Position numbers and translations under genes: made by a program
In this document: piece by piece, positions 12,783 through 18,828 of the stretch
Numbering within the stretch: position 1 is the first letter of the stretch
Layout of the letters: the number at the start of each line of letters is the position of its first letter
Origin: Thiomicrorhabdus arctica DSM 13458
GTDB lineage: Bacteria; Pseudomonadota; Gammaproteobacteria; Thiomicrospirales; Thiomicrospiraceae
Assembly (NCBI RefSeq): GCF_000381085.1
Contig: NZ_KB905899.1
Coordinates: 620,001 to 684,000 of the forward strand
Length of the DNA: 64,000 bases
Reading direction: 5' to 3'
The notes under the pieces: model-generated
Told to the model about the DNA's origin: nothing
Databases searched by the model: none
What the model saw: only the letters and a program-made list of their open reading frames with translations

Positions 12783-14942
12783 CTATACAGTCTCAATAGA
12801 GACGGACTCAATATTTTGAATTCTTTCTAACTGATCTAGCAAATCGCCTAATTTTATTTTTAGGTCGAGCTCCAGTGTTAAATCCATTTCCACTGAGCGT
12901 TCTTCACTCTCTGTTTTGGTCTGCGAAGAAATTACATTAATATCTAGTTCAGTTAAAACGGCCATGACATCACGTAATAACCCTTTTCTGTCAAAAGCAA
13001 CAATATGTAAATCGGCTTCGTAAATTGGAGATTCGGCACTTTGTTTGCTCCAAGAAACTTCAATCAAGCGTTGCAACTCTTCATGTGACATATTGAGAAT
13101 GTTTGCACAGTCACTTTTATGGATGGTGATACCACGGCCTCTGGTGACATAACCAACAATATCCTCTCCAGGTTGTGGCTCACAACAGGGCGCTAAATTC
13201 GTTTTAAGGTGCACGGCACCAACAACATATGCAACACTCTCATTGGTTACGTTATGCTCTTCATCACCATTAAAGCCAAAAGATTTCTGGCCGCCATGAG
13301 ACTGTTGTTTAGGTTTGAGAAAACGCTGTAGCGCATTGGCAATTTGGCGTTCATTTAACCGTCCCTTACCAATGTCTTCATAAAATAGTTCGCTGTCGTC
13401 ATATTTAAAGCGTGAAATAACCTCAGATACGTTGATAGAATGGGCATGTAACCGTTTGATTTCACGGTTAAAAACTAACTCACCAGCAATAATGTTTTCG
13501 GTTCGGTTCTGTTTGTTGAGCCAAGCTCTAACCTTATTGCGTGCACTGCTACTGGTCAAATAACCTAAGTTTGGATTTAACCAGTTACGGCTAGGATGCC
13601 CATTTTTAATGGTTAATACTTCAACCTTATCACCGGTCTTTAACGCGGTGCTGAGTGTTTTAATACGTCCGTTTATTTTCGCGCCTCGGCAACGGTGGCC
13701 TAATTCAGTATGAATGTTATAAGCGAAATCAAGAGGAGTCGCACCTTGCGCTAAGGTAATGATGTCATTAGTAGGGGTCATAACAAAAATATGCCTACTT
13801 TGAAGTTCAGTACTGATCTCTTTAAATATCTCTGGATCATCAGTATTTTCAAGCAGTTGGCGAACATTGGAAATGCTACGTTCTAGCTTTTCATCAAAGC
13901 TTTTTCCACCTTCTTTATAGCGCCAATGCGCAGCAACACCATATTCAGAGTTATAGTGCATTTCAGGCGTTCTAATTTGAATCTCAACCGTTCTACCTTC
14001 CGGGCCAATAATAACCGTGTGTATTGATTGGTACCCATTATCTTTAGGGGAGGCAATATAGTCATCAAACTCTTTTTTGACATAGCTCCACTGACTATGG
14101 ATTGCTCCGAGCGCCTCATAACAATCTTTAATTGAATCAACATAAATCCTTACGGCTCTTAAATCATAGAGCTCTTCAATAGGAAGTTCTTTACGCTGCA
14201 TTTTCTTCCAAATGCTATAGATATGCTTGGGTCTTCCTGAGATATTTGCCTTAACACCGTGCTTCTTGAGTAAATTATTCAAAGTCTCCAGCACTTTTTC
14301 AATGTAATTTTCACGTTCATTACGCTTCATTTTCAATTGAGAGGCAATTTCTTTATAGGCCACTGGATGCAAGAATCGAAAGGAAAGGTCTTCTAGCTCC
14401 CACTTTAATTGGGCAATGCCTAAACGGTTAGCAAGCGGAGAAAAGATCAACTGCGTTTCTGCAGCAATTTGGTGGCGTACCTGTTCCTCTTCAAACTTCA
14501 AGTGGCGTAAACGGGCAACGCGATAAGCAAGCTTGACAATCATAATGCGAATATCAGAAGTCATGGCGAGCAACATTTGACGTAGTCGTTCATTCTGAAC
14601 GTCATCCGATTGCCTCACAATATCAAATTCTTTGAACTGATTGAGTTTACGGATACCAGAGACCAAGTCCGCTGTCGCTCGACCAAAACGCTCTTCAATC
14701 ATCTCATCGGTATAAATGTTCTCCAGATTTCCATCACTCACCAGGGTTGCTATTAAGGTCTCTACATCCATATTTATCTTGGCTAGGATTTCCGCTACAT
14801 CGGCACTGCGAACCACGGTAAGCTCAGGTAAGCTTTGCGCCTCAAGGGCAATCGCGCAGGCGAGTTCGCACCGGTGCAGTTGCTCCGGTGTTAAGCGCTC
14901 TGTTTTAAAGAGGCGTAAAAATAGTTCTCTTGCTTGATTCAT
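12783..14942 (-). CDS. relA: (p)ppGpp synthetase RelA
   Basis: This 719-residue protein has an N-terminal pseudo-hydrolase domain (about 20-190), a synthetase domain with SPKDNGYQSIHTVI and EIQIRTPEMH (about 300-370), a TGS domain (about 405-470), helical and zinc-finger-like regions (APCCEPQPGEDI) and a C-terminal ACT/RRM domain (about 640-719). The HD metal motif of SpoT/Rel hydrolases is missing (VSDGNLENIY stands in its place). The protein is therefore the synthesis-only RelA that makes (p)ppGpp on stalled ribosomes. The length is close to E. coli RelA (744). Confidence 0.93.
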   Translation of the reverse strand: MNQARELFLRLFKTERLTPEQLHRCELACAIALEAQSLPELTVVRSADVAEILAKINMDVETLIATLVSDGNLENIYTDEMIEERFGRATADLVSGIRKLNQFKEFDIVRQSDDVQNERLRQMLLAMTSDIRIMIVKLAYRVARLRHLKFEEEQVRHQIAAETQLIFSPLANRLGIAQLKWELEDLSFRFLHPVAYKEIASQLKMKRNERENYIEKVLETLNNLLKKHGVKANISGRPKHIYSIWKKMQRKELPIEELYDLRAVRIYVDSIKDCYEALGAIHSQWSYVKKEFDDYIASPKDNGYQSIHTVIIGPEGRTVEIQIRTPEMHYNSEYGVAAHWRYKEGGKSFDEKLERSISNVRQLLENTDDPEIFKEISTELQSRHIFVMTPTNDIITLAQGATPLDFAYNIHTELGHRCRGAKINGRIKTLSTALKTGDKVEVLTIKNGHPSRNWLNPNLGYLTSSSARNKVRAWLNKQNRTENIIAGELVFNREIKRLHAHSINVSEVISRFKYDDSELFYEDIGKGRLNERQIANALQRFLKPKQQSHGGQKSFGFNGDEEHNVTNESVAYVVGAVHLKTNLAPCCEPQPGEDIVGYVTRGRGITIHKSDCANILNMSHEELQRLIEVSWSKQSAESPIYEADLHIVAFDRKGLLRDVMAVLTELDINVISSQTKTESEERSVEMDLTLELDLKIKLGDLLDQLERIQNIESVSIETV

Positions 14943-15303
14943 AGTGCTTTAGTGTTCATATCTAGAGTGATGACGTTATTTAAAATTTTGTTTTTTGATG
15001 GGCTATTCTAGCTATTTTTCCGTAGCAAGCCTATTTATTTCAGCCTTACTCTTTACTATCAGGGTATAGATTGTTTGCAAAATAAGCATTAACAGCCCGG
15101 TAAGTTGCATAATTCAGGCATAATTAATGTCAAAAGAGGGAGGTGTTTGATTCATTTATTTTAGACATAAAAACCGATTTTAATCGGCTACTTTGTTTAC
15201 TAATTTGCTTTAGTCGTTGAGTTTAATTGCTCGTAGCATAGGTGGTGTTCTAGTATTAATACGGTTTGACGGAGAGAAGTTGATGTAAGCTCCTCTAGAG
15301 AGC
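14943..15303. other. Intergenic region between relA and the arm-domain gene
   Basis: These 360 bases hold the relA upstream region at the left. In the middle is a small terminator on the minus strand (15168-15187), and at the right one arm of a long inverted repeat. I find no supported gene. Confidence 0.6.
15168..15187 (-). terminator. Terminator of the arm-domain/DUF3310 gene
   Basis: Read on the minus strand, CCGATT, loop AA, AATCGG is followed by TTTTTA. It lies about 120 bases after the stop of the gene at 15304-15735. Confidence 0.6.
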
Positions 15304-15319
15304 TTACATCAACTTCTCT
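15273..15319. repeat. 20-bp perfect inverted repeat overlapping a gene end
   Basis: The arms AGAGAAGTTGATGTAAGCTC (15273-15292) and its exact reverse complement (15300-15319) are separated by seven bases (CTCTAGA). The right arm contains the last five codons and the stop codon of the DUF3310 gene; the left arm lies in non-coding DNA. No T tract follows on either strand. Confidence 0.85.
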
Positions 15320-15735
15320 AAGCGCTCAATCTCAGCCTGCACGTAGAACTTGATCTTCTTTGCCTCTTTCAGCATATCACGGTTTGATAGCATACTGTAA
15401 CGATAGCAAGCGCGGAACACTTCCCCAATTTGGCTATTCATATTACGATGGCTAATAAGGTGTTGTAGCTCAGTTGATCCGTTAGGAAGTTTGTAGTGGT
15501 TCGCGGTACAGCTATCTAAGGGAACTTTTTTACGATTAACTTCCATATCAGGCGCAGTAATCACTTGCTCCTCTTTGATTTCTTTTTCACGCTTCATTGC
15601 CCAAGTCTTCGCAGCAGACTCCTTTGAAAAGGTTTTACTTTCCGAATGAACTAATACACCTTGTTTGCTTATCCTAATCTTAGCCATATATGAGGACGAG
15701 CCATCTAGATTTTTTCTTTCGACTATTGTTGCCAT
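15304..15735 (-). CDS. Integrase-type arm-binding domain fused to DUF3310-like domain
   Basis: This is a 143-residue protein. Residues 1-56 (MATIVERKN...SYMAKIRI...SKTFSKESAAKTWAMKREKEI) look like the N-terminal arm-site-binding domain of phage tyrosine integrases. The catalytic part of an integrase (R..HxxR..Y) is absent. Residues about 78-143 (ANHYKLPNG..., IGEVFRACYRY..., EAKKIKFYVQAEIERLE) resemble DUF3310, a small phage domain of unknown function. AAGGAAG five bases before the ATG supports the start. The gene is flanked by a 20-bp inverted repeat at its 3' end and by many GTGACA repeats upstream. I infer a phage-derived regulator or the scar of a deleted prophage; the function is unknown. 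Confidence 0.6.
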   Translation of the reverse strand: MATIVERKNLDGSSSYMAKIRISKQGVLVHSESKTFSKESAAKTWAMKREKEIKEEQVITAPDMEVNRKKVPLDSCTANHYKLPNGSTELQHLISHRNMNSQIGEVFRACYRYSMLSNRDMLKEAKKIKFYVQAEIERLEKLM

Positions 15736-16090
15736 AGCACTTCCTTTTACGTTGTCACAACCATTCTAAGTGACATCTTTTGTTGGATTTAAAGTGACAC
15801 TTAATGTGACAACTATGACTCACTGATGTGACAAACTTTACAAGCCATGTGACAAGAAAGTGACAGTCCAATATTCCTGAATAGTAATGCATAGTGACAA
15901 AACAGTAAAGAACAATATATTGCTGAATGTACATGGAAGTATCAAACTAGCGGCCAATAAAAACCTCAAATCTAACCTTAGAAAACCACTGGTGCTTGAT
16001 TGTTATGCCATCATATTGGAACCAAGTGACAAAAAAGACTTAAATGGCTTAAAATAGTCGAAAATAACTGAAAAAAGTAAAACTAAACGA
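15736..16090. other. Intergenic region carrying the GTGACA array
   Basis: These 355 bases separate the divergent arm-domain gene and dusA. They hold eight direct GTGACA words and one inverted copy (described separately) and are AT-rich. No open frame of note. The promoters of both flanking genes must be here, but I cannot place them. Confidence 0.6.
15752..16032. repeat. Array of GTGACA(A) heptamers
   Basis: GTGACA begins at 15770, 15794, 15806, 15828, 15849, 15860, 15894 and 16026 on the plus strand; an inverted copy TTGTCAC is at 15752-15758. Five copies are GTGACAA. Steps between the copies are 24, 12, 22, 21, 11, 34 and 132 bases, close to multiples of one helical turn. The array lies directly upstream of the arm-domain gene. 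Confidence 0.75.
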
Positions 16091-17164
16091 ATGATAAAAT
16101 CACCAATAGCCCTTGAATCTTATGGTAAATCCAGTGATAACAGTCACTTAAATAGTGCTAATCAATTCAGCGTAGCGCCCATGCTGGATTGGACCAACCG
16201 TCATTGTCGCTACTTTCACCGTCAGCTCAGTCAGAATGCTTGGCTCTATTCTGAAATGGTCACGACCGGTGCCATTATTTATGGCAATAATTTAGAGCGC
16301 TTTTTAGGGCATGACGAATCTGAAATCCCCGTTGTCTTACAACTAGGCGGCAGTGGGACTAAAGATATGGCCATCTGCGCTAAGCTTGGTGAGGAGTGGG
16401 GCTATTCTGAAATAAATTTGAATATCGGCTGTCCTAGCGACCGTGTGCAAAATAATATGATTGGTGCCTGTTTAATGGCGCATCCTGAATTGGTTGCTGA
16501 AAATGTGGCGGCGATGAAAGCGGTCGTAGACATACCTGTTACGGTAAAGACTCGTATCGGTATTGATGACCAGGAAGAGTTCGAAACACTTTATCAGTTT
16601 ATCAATGGCTTAGTGGAGGCAGGGGTGGATGGTGTTATTATTCATGCTCGTAAAGCCTGGCTACAAGGGCTTTCTCCTAAGCAGAATCGTGATGTACCTC
16701 CGTTGAACTATGCTTGGGTTCATCAAATTAAGGCCGAATTCCCTCAACTCTCAGTAGCTATTAATGGGGGGATTAAAACCCTTGAACAAGGTCTGGTACA
16801 TCTAGAGGATTATGAAGGTTTACCCGCAGTTGATGGCTTAATGTTAGGCCGTTCGGCTTATGAACAGTCCTATTTATTAGCGCAAGTGGATCAGCAACTC
16901 TATGGCAGTAAGCGGACTATTATTTCACGTGAGCAAGTTTTAGAGAACATGAAACCTTACATAGAAAACCATCTTTCTAATGATGGTAAATTAAACCAGG
17001 TCACTCGTCATATGCTAGGCCTGTTCCACGGACTACCAGGTGGTCGAATTTGGCGACGTCACCTTTCTGAACACGCTTTTAAAGCAGGTGCAGGTATCGA
17101 GGTCGTTGAGCAGGCTTATCGTTTAGTCGCGGATGAAATCCAAAGAATGGAGGATCAAAAGTGA
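16091..17164 (+). CDS. dusA: tRNA-dihydrouridine(20/20a) synthase DusA
   Basis: This 357-residue flavoprotein reduces uridine 20/20a in the tRNA D loop. FSVAPMLDWTNRHCRYFHR, EMVTTGAIIYGN, LNIGCPSDRVQNNMIGACLM (catalytic Cys) and the IHARKAWLQGLSPKQNR block are diagnostic of the DusA subgroup. An N-terminal extension of about 28 residues precedes the barrel; a later start would be possible but the ATG at 16091 is the first available. Its stop overlaps the GTG start of xseA by four bases (GTGA), so the two are coupled. Confidence 0.93.
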   Translation: MIKSPIALESYGKSSDNSHLNSANQFSVAPMLDWTNRHCRYFHRQLSQNAWLYSEMVTTGAIIYGNNLERFLGHDESEIPVVLQLGGSGTKDMAICAKLGEEWGYSEINLNIGCPSDRVQNNMIGACLMAHPELVAENVAAMKAVVDIPVTVKTRIGIDDQEEFETLYQFINGLVEAGVDGVIIHARKAWLQGLSPKQNRDVPPLNYAWVHQIKAEFPQLSVAINGGIKTLEQGLVHLEDYEGLPAVDGLMLGRSAYEQSYLLAQVDQQLYGSKRTIISREQVLENMKPYIENHLSNDGKLNQVTRHMLGLFHGLPGGRIWRRHLSEHAFKAGAGIEVVEQAYRLVADEIQRMEDQK

Positions 17165-18828
17165 TTTTTTTAGACGTACCATTTCGAGAGAAAGACGAAG
17201 CTAAAGCGCTAGGAGCGCGCTGGGATGGTGTGAGTAAAAAATGGTATATTCCGCAAGAACTTTCTGAGCAACCAGAACCCTTTCAGAGATGGCTAACGAA
17301 CGTAAATACAATCAATACAAATCAGGTTTTAAATCATGATCTTCAGCAAACCCTGACACAAACACAGCACCATATTTATAGTGAAAACAGTCCTTTACAA
17401 ACGGGTGCACAAGATAATTCGAACCCCAAAAAGACTGAAAAGGGCGCTTTGCTTTCTACGGTATTACGCAAAGTTCAACAAGCCCTTCGCCAAAGCTTCC
17501 CAGGTGCGACTTGGGTGGTTGCTGAAATTGCTAATCTGAATAATAGTCGTGGACACCTCTATCTTGAGTTGACTGAAAATAATGAGCAAGGACAATCTAT
17601 TGCCAGTTGCCGTGCCATGATCTGGCAAAGCCAGGCACAAAGATTGTTACAACGCTTTGAAACGGAGACCGGCAGTCCATTTAGCATCGGCCAAAAAGTA
17701 TTGCTCTTAACGGAAATTAGTTTTCACGAAAAGTACGGTTTTTCGATGGTGGTGCAGGATATTGATCCAAGCTATACTCTTGGAGAGCTGGAACTGAATC
17801 TAAGTAATATTCGAAAACAGCTTATTACTGATGGAATCTATCAGCAAAATAAACAGTTTACGCTTCCTAGTGACTTCTTTAGAGTGGCGGTTATCGCACC
17901 GCCTAAAGCCGCAGGCTTGGGTGATTTCCGGGCTGATGCTGATAATCTTCAAGCCGCAGGACTTTGTGATTTCAAATATTTTTACAGTACTTTTCAAGGG
18001 GATTCAGTTGAAAATGAAATGCTTTCAGCGATTGAAGCAATTCACGCATTGCATCATAGCCAGGCGTTTGATGCCTTAGTTATTATTCGCGGAGGCGGCG
18101 CTAAACTTGACCTAAACATGCTCAATTTATACTCTGTAGCCAAGCAGTTATGCATGGCTCAGCTTCCCGTATTAACGGGGATAGGTCATGAGCGTGACTC
18201 AACAATACTGGATGAAATATCTAACCATCGTTTTGATACGCCAAGTAAAGTCATCGCATTTATCCGCCATGAAATATTCCAAAGAGCACAGCAAGCTAAA
18301 TCAGATTGGCAAAAAATAGAGCACTCTAGCCGTTTAATGGTTCAATATCTAGAGCAAGATTTATCTCAATTAAATCAAGAGATTACCCATAACAGTCAAG
18401 GGGCTATCTATCGTTGGAAGCAAGCGATGGAGCCGCTTCAGTTTCAGATTCAGCGGTTGAGCGAAAATCGCATTCAGTCTGCTTTGGTCAGTATTAATGA
18501 ACTGAGACAAACCATTGATGTTCAACTTAAAAGCAGCCTTAAGATGATTAAGGCTAATCTTGATTTATACCAACATACGACAGAAAAAGAGTCTAAAAGG
18601 GTGCTCGAAACTAAGCATCAGCAAATCATTCAATGGATTGCACTGGTATTGAGCTCAGGCCCTAAAACACAGTTGAACCGTGGTTTTAATATCGCCAAGA
18701 ATGCCATTACGGGTAAGCCTGTTACAACCGCCAACCAGGCACTGAAGACCAAATCCATTCAATTGGAATTCGTTGATGGTAAAGTATTGGCAGAAATTGA
18801 CCAAGCAACCGGTATTCTAATAGAATGA
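17161..18828 (+). CDS. xseA: Exodeoxyribonuclease VII large subunit with N-terminal DUF5710 domain
   Basis: This 555-residue protein is about 100 longer than usual. Residues 1-47 (MIFLDVPFREKDEAKALGAR, W..KKWYIP) form a DUF5710 module seen in plasmid and phage DNA-processing proteins. A Gln/Asn/Thr-rich linker (about 50-93) leads to the normal OB-fold (about 97-200) and the ExoVII catalytic/coiled-coil domain (VIAPPKAAGLGDFRAD, IIRGGGAKLDLNMLN, GIGHERDSTILDE). ExoVII degrades single-stranded DNA from both ends in the cytoplasm. The GTG start overlaps the dusA stop, so the extension is in the natural frame. xseB follows after about 110 bases. Confidence 0.92.
   Translation: MIFLDVPFREKDEAKALGARWDGVSKKWYIPQELSEQPEPFQRWLTNVNTINTNQVLNHDLQQTLTQTQHHIYSENSPLQTGAQDNSNPKKTEKGALLSTVLRKVQQALRQSFPGATWVVAEIANLNNSRGHLYLELTENNEQGQSIASCRAMIWQSQAQRLLQRFETETGSPFSIGQKVLLLTEISFHEKYGFSMVVQDIDPSYTLGELELNLSNIRKQLITDGIYQQNKQFTLPSDFFRVAVIAPPKAAGLGDFRADADNLQAAGLCDFKYFYSTFQGDSVENEMLSAIEAIHALHHSQAFDALVIIRGGGAKLDLNMLNLYSVAKQLCMAQLPVLTGIGHERDSTILDEISNHRFDTPSKVIAFIRHEIFQRAQQAKSDWQKIEHSSRLMVQYLEQDLSQLNQEITHNSQGAIYRWKQAMEPLQFQIQRLSENRIQSALVSINELRQTIDVQLKSSLKMIKANLDLYQHTTEKESKRVLETKHQQIIQWIALVLSSGPKTQLNRGFNIAKNAITGKPVTTANQALKTKSIQLEFVDGKVLAEIDQATGILIE

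Follow-up and report, generated by a model that had tools for sequence, protein, structure and literature searches.

The window analysed here, a stretch of 64,000 nucleotides from the Thiomicrorhabdus arctica DSM 13458 genome (G000), contains, in this order, a RelA/SpoT-family gene (12783-14942, minus strand), a small gene designated gene143, an array of GTGACA sites, dusA, and an open reading frame (17161-18828) which we take to encode exonuclease VII (Table 1). gene143 is divergent from dusA and lies at its 5' end, which is the position of the integrase gene in dusA-specific islands. At the 3' end of gene143, a perfect 20-bp inverted repeat (15273-15319; RNA fold of -37.3 kcal/mol, z -8.3) is possibly a terminator hairpin, though it was not listed by the terminator scan.

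Table 1. Features of the gene143-dusA locus, in window positions.
Feature	Position	Strand	Basis or remark
gene143	15304..15735	-	143 aa; open reading frame, tblastn to phage integrases, PHROG matches
Phage C-terminal domain, residues 74-142, PHROG 4472/4897 type	15310..15516	-	
Arm (AB) domain, residues 1-57	15565..15735	-	aligned with arms of dusA-associated integrases; predicted beta-beta-beta-alpha
Inverted site TTGTCAC	15752..15758	-	nearest the gene143 start
Opposed pair TGTCAC-N11-GTGACA	15753..15775		reads alike on either strand
Seven direct GTGACA sites	15770..15899	+	kept in G007
Distal eighth GTGACA	16026..16031	+	possible -35 of dusA; kept in G007
Candidate dusA promoter, GTGACA-18 nt-TAAAAT	16026..16055	+	promoter scan; stretch kept in G007
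dusA, tRNA dihydrouridine(20/20a) synthase	16091..17164	+	NCBIfam, E 1.1e-148
dusA segment matching the att core of dusA-associated integrases	16173..16193	+	compared with the cores of these integrases

A phased GTGACA array

The gap between gene143 and dusA (15736-16090, 355 bp) contains eight GTGACA copies on the plus strand, at 15770, 15794, 15806, 15828, 15849, 15860, 15894 and 16026, and a single one on the minus strand, at 15753. The direct sites are separated by steps of 24, 12, 22, 21, 11, 34 and 132 bases, and the initial annotation had described both the sites and their steps correctly to the base. Such a density is not expected by chance: 5000 dinucleotide shuffles of the gap contain GTGACA 0.36 times on average and 4 times at most, and the best shuffled hexamer with at least two G/C does not exceed 6 copies. 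Over the whole window, the motif occurs 33 times, including the nine copies of the array, for 25.4 expected, and 6 of 100 shuffles get to 33. Three GTGACA sites separated by gaps of 5-30 are found at the array locus and nowhere else in the genome.

The spacing had also been said to approach multiples of a DNA turn, and this is borne out by random placement of the sites, with a phasing near 11 bp. When the best period is taken within 10-12 bp, the random placements being allowed the same freedom, the observed phasing is equalled by 68 of 4000 placements for the seven dense direct sites and by 31 of 4000 for all eight. In the array of the relative G007 (see below), the corresponding values for the eight dense sites and for all nine are 18 and 111 of 4000, respectively. 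With the period held fixed, the array fits 11.0 well (R 0.86) and 10.5 poorly (R 0.43). Repeats which are phased and precede the gene for an arm-domain protein have the layout of an arm-type array. Iterons of a replication origin were considered as well, and were rejected as there is no replication initiator gene among the neighbours.

The distal GTGACA at 16026 would form the -35 of the candidate dusA promoter, a prediction that is weak when taken alone, since promoter-like sites in 15200-16150 are no commoner than in shuffles (2 found versus 3.1 expected). No promoter of gene143 was found on the minus strand by the same scan of 15200-16150.

An integrase arm domain without a recombinase

gene143 is composed of the arm domain of a dusA-associated integrase (DAI) and a phage domain, and is devoid of a catalytic domain. 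A tblastn search against phage records gives 91 records; most of the 20 listed are those of integrases, whose matches begin at residue 1 and end between residues 53 and 93. The arm is 39-58% identical to those of 23 DAIs, and the full integrase of locus L172, used as a query, is 55% identical to gene143 over residues 1-64 of the latter. Both match PHROG 22184, with E values of 1.7e-6 for gene143 and 1e-38 for L172. The tyrosine recombinase catalytic domain (RHRH/Y; PF00589) is matched by the integrases of L172, L107 and the family genome G034, and not by gene143. No Pfam or NCBIfam family matches gene143 above its cut-off, and a single Pfam match, with an E value of 0.076, falls far below its own.

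The C-terminal domain is found at 31 IMG/VR loci, with 43-66% identity in the matched part. In these loci, the PHROG 4472/4897 domain stands alone or after other N-terminal parts, as if it were a module of DNA-binding proteins. By contrast with gene143, the domain is not preceded by a DAI arm in any of the 31 viral proteins, as judged by eye and with two of them running off the contig start. At these loci (L004-L034), the parts preceding the domain are various, and some look by eye like helix-turn-helix domains.

The AlphaFold model of gene143 (mean pLDDT 74.1, pTM 0.37) predicts a beta-beta-beta-alpha arm, with block-mean pLDDT of 80-92 over residues 1-50, a helical C-terminus and an unsure linker at residues 59-81. 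Fold searches return weak matches (best Z 5.6), including dsRNA-binding domains and an AP2 domain (6sy0, Z 4.4), and there is no tyrosine recombinase among the 50 matches listed of each search. No solved structure matches the gene143 sequence.

Candidate arm-type motifs upstream of dusA-associated integrases

The array was compared with the upstream regions of DAIs from viral contigs, phage records and genomes, in a set made of the best 80 of at least 485 confirmed loci, which is not a census and in which many loci begin at the integrase. Of 40 loci, 35 have a dusA-like core between -150 and -284 relative to the integrase. Of 36 upstream regions, 14 have a 7-base motif which is repeated more often than in shuffles, no more than 2 of 300 of which equal the observed count. 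This sample leaves out L068 and includes near copies (L141/L144 and L095/L161, among the 14 significant regions). In those 14, the copies form two groups on either side of the core, at distances of 7-93 and 235-335 bases ahead of the integrase start, and these two groups look like the two arms of an attP site. The motifs vary between DAIs (GTAGCAA, GGAGCAC, GTATCAC, GTGGTAA, GGTGTAC, AGCACCC and others). The other 22 regions have no significant repeat of exact 7-mers; several further DAIs carry three GTAGCAA at like positions, which are individually not significant. Lineage-specific repeats are seen at like distances on both sides of the core at L161, L162, L165, L169 and L144.

According to the initial annotation, an absence of repeat clusters beside homologues would have told against its proposal, and such clusters are indeed present. 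GTGACA is found at arm-type positions around a dusA-like core at L172 (GTGACA at -12, TGTCAC at -30 and -249) and L107 (GTGACA at -8 and -18, TGTCAC at -36), whose arms are the closest to that of gene143 among the DAIs examined. The proximal counts at these two loci are equalled by 12 and 0, respectively, of 5000 shuffles of 100 bp. At both, TGTCAC-N12-GTGACA adjoins the start codon; an N11 version is present in the window. Two GTGACA copies are found at L155 and at L081/L082, and one at L158; two copies are reached in 25 of 5000 shuffles for L155 and in 34 of 5000 for L082.

In a tree of the arms, based on 57 columns and with a bootstrap that had not settled, gene143 groups with L172 (94/87), and then with L107 and L173 (94/93), while L075 falls inside this group on a long, untrustworthy branch. 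The DAI loci were also ranked by arm similarity to gene143, after reduction from 52 to 34 at 85% arm identity (the twin L176 standing for L172; L114 and L153 being dropped for having less than 100 bp upstream). The 4 of 34 loci with at least two GTGACA within 100 bp have a high arm similarity (one-sided Mann-Whitney p 0.0034), as do the 5 of 34 with at least one (p 0.0017). To judge from these comparisons, the integrases nearest to gene143 among the DAIs examined have GTGACA as their motif, and the array shares it with two of the three nearest full-length ones, L172 and L107. The third, L173, belongs to the same small clade and has another motif instead; the arms in third to sixth place by similarity to gene143 (L147, L074, L173 and L168) are those of loci without GTGACA; and over the whole arm tree the GTGACA label clusters no better than chance (133 of 500 shuffles are as low). 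These three observations point either to a fast turnover of the motif or to a looser link between arm and motif.

Does the array belong to a working attachment site? The distance between gene143 and the dusA core is 456 bp, compared with 150-284 at 35 DAI loci, and the layout is thus not that of a plain attP. Between the relA-like gene and dusA (14943-16090), there is no second att copy or attL remnant: the best ungapped match to the core is 12/21, for a mean of 12.4 and a maximum of 15 in shuffles, and the two flanking att direct repeats that characterize dusA-specific islands are not found in this interval. With the L172 integrase as a query, the only DAI sequence found in the genome is the arm of gene143, one further match being 25% identical (E 1e-3). 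The genome has no PF11112 (RdfN-type) gene either; in Vibrio dusA-specific elements, according to the text available, excision requires the PrtN-domain factor RdfN (PMC8409611). Taken together, the core distance and the lack of a DAI, of a PF11112 gene and of a second att copy make a working attP at the array unlikely.

In G034, a full DAI lies beside dusA (L067, 7949-10629) and is followed by small genes, including a PF11112 gene. Two other small genes there are presumably a helix-turn-helix protein gene and one for a 241-aa RES-type-toxin-like protein. The 59 bp before dusA in the window have their top raw score, 27 over 44 bp, with the dusA leader of this DAI-bearing genome; as z values among 48 loci (three DAIs omitted), G034 reaches 2.76, versus 3.88, 3.07 and 2.80 for L063, L064 and L049, which are loci without gene143.

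Conservation and possible roles of the array

Homologues of gene143 were found in 62 family genomes only in its own genome, in the same-genus relative G007 (76% identity) and, as a full-length DAI at the same place, in G034. dusA is matched in 50 of 58 relatives; among the 30 dusA loci fetched, gene143 is present in G000 and G007 only, and G034 has a related arm instead. The GTGACA triple array occurs at the dusA place in 2 of 32 genus genomes (several of them incomplete), which are precisely the two carriers of gene143, so that the only intact homologue found is accompanied by the same array. The triple pattern is also seen in G026 and G011, away from their dusA loci; by eye, the triples of G026 and one of those of G011 look like coding repeats.

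Conservation could be assessed in a single comparison, that of G000 with G007. Each of the 9 sites of G000 is aligned column for column with a site of G007, in the same order and with 54 of 54 bases identical, compared with 57 of 99 non-site positions within the dense block (Fisher p 2e-9), in an alignment which may favour the sites. From the dense block to dusA, the match of non-site bases is fairly high (120 of 163). The G007 array has a tenth GTGACA site. gene143 is of equal length in G007, with no frame break, and its dN/dS is 0.179 (NG86) or 0.293 (YN00). The values are 0.135 and 0.201 for the arm, 0.097 and 0.185 for the C-terminal domain, 0.560 (NG86) for the linker, and 0.079 and 0.127 for dusA. 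Purifying selection thus acts on the two domains of gene143, the linker being only loosely constrained. On this one comparison, the constraint on the coding sequence and on the sites argues for both protein and sites being functional.

These results bear on the idea that the locus is a neutral leftover, in which a truncated integrase gene and an old attP arm have yet to decay. It is consistent with a genome having neither a DAI nor an RdfN-type gene, with no second att copy being found in 14943-16090, and with gene143 being restricted to 2 of 62 family genomes, the third match being a full DAI. The low dN/dS of the two domains compared with the linker, the unbroken frame in G007 and the retention of every site base within a diverged dense block nevertheless speak against it, and we regard it as unlikely, albeit the least unlikely of the alternatives. 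According to the initial proposal, the protein binds the array, which would be either an operator or what is left of an attP arm. Descent from an attP is supported and a role as operator plausible; the results do not support a decaying relic, as both protein and sites appear constrained.

The explanation which we favour, and consider probable, is that the array derives from the arm-type sites of a lost dusA island, which grew in number and were retained as an operator for a stand-alone arm-domain regulator. A dusA-specific mobile element would have left the arm-type sites of its integrase behind, and the integrase gene would have lost all but its arm-binding domain and been fused to a phage domain, in an order of events that we infer. 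The gene143 protein would then occupy neighbouring GTGACA sites along the same face of the DNA, presumably in a cooperative manner, and the bound protein would cover the start region of gene143 and lead to autoregulation, presumably repression. Through the 16026 site, dusA transcription could also fall. As far as sequence can tell, an operator for gene143 itself is the most likely role of the array; it is possibly an operator for dusA too, the 16026 site being the -35 of the candidate promoter. This suggests that part of a mobile element has been reused as a gene switch.

An alternative, which we hold to be improbable and place behind the neutral leftover, is that gene143 is an anti-integration factor, its arm domain occupying the arm sites of incoming dusA phages or building dead complexes, and thereby keeping dusA free of islands. 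The host would in this case have kept a catalysis-free integrase to guard dusA, in a dominant-negative way, against phage integration, and the enlarged array would set its dose. gene143 does share its arm lineage and motif with full-length DAIs from viral contigs, lacks the catalytic part and sits at the target locus; but a big array beside its own gene would be unnecessary for such a role, and few genomes carry gene143.

Still less probably, the sites could belong to another regulator, such as a PhoB-like reader of TGTCA repeats 11 bp apart, gene143 being a bystander. TGTCAC resembles half a PHO box, one step is of 11 and the period is near 11. However, just one of the seven steps is 11, the triple array at dusA follows exactly the two gene143 carriers among 32 genus genomes, and GTGACA also adjoins full-length DAIs. 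Finally, it is very unlikely that the array is a working arm used in trans by a visiting dusA integrase, with gene143 as a directionality-factor-like helper: motif and orientation agree with the upstream regions of L172 and L107, but the core is too far from the gene start (456 bp, not 150-284), no second att copy was found in 14943-16090, the sites outnumber those at the DAIs examined and the genome has no DAI that could be found.

If the operator reading is true, the arm domain of an integrase and its arm sites have outlived the recombinase and become a regulator and its operator. We found no paper in the open-access literature joining integrase, arm-type sites and dusA, nor, in the text available from this literature, a described case of a domesticated or truncated arm-binding integrase acting as a regulator; the main texts of PMC4482086 and PMC8409611 contain no word starting with 'arm'. 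Candidate arm-type sites for dusA integrases are now available, and as their motifs differ between arm lineages, the specificity of arm domains can be tested by lineage comparison.

dusA-associated integrases and their att repeats were defined by Farrugia et al. (2015), as far as the available text goes (PMC4482086). The gene143 locus resembles the islands described there by its arm family, its divergent position by the dusA 5' end and the att-like segment of dusA. It differs from them in that it has no catalytic domain, no flanking att pair that could be found and a phage domain instead, and also by its 9-10 GTGACA sites (in the window and G007, respectively), versus 2-6 copies of the best exact 7-mer per 450 bp at the DAIs examined. 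A partial precedent for the array as an operator is provided by IntS of KplE1 (PMC2951348, in the text available). The promoter of intS, which overlaps attL and the arm-type sites there, is repressed by IntS itself; in the mutants reported, repression persisted when arm sites were mutated one at a time, and the effect of the site over the -10 box could not be assessed. Unlike gene143, which is no recombinase, IntS is a full integrase whose att site works, but in both cases arm-type sites precede the gene for an arm-binding protein.
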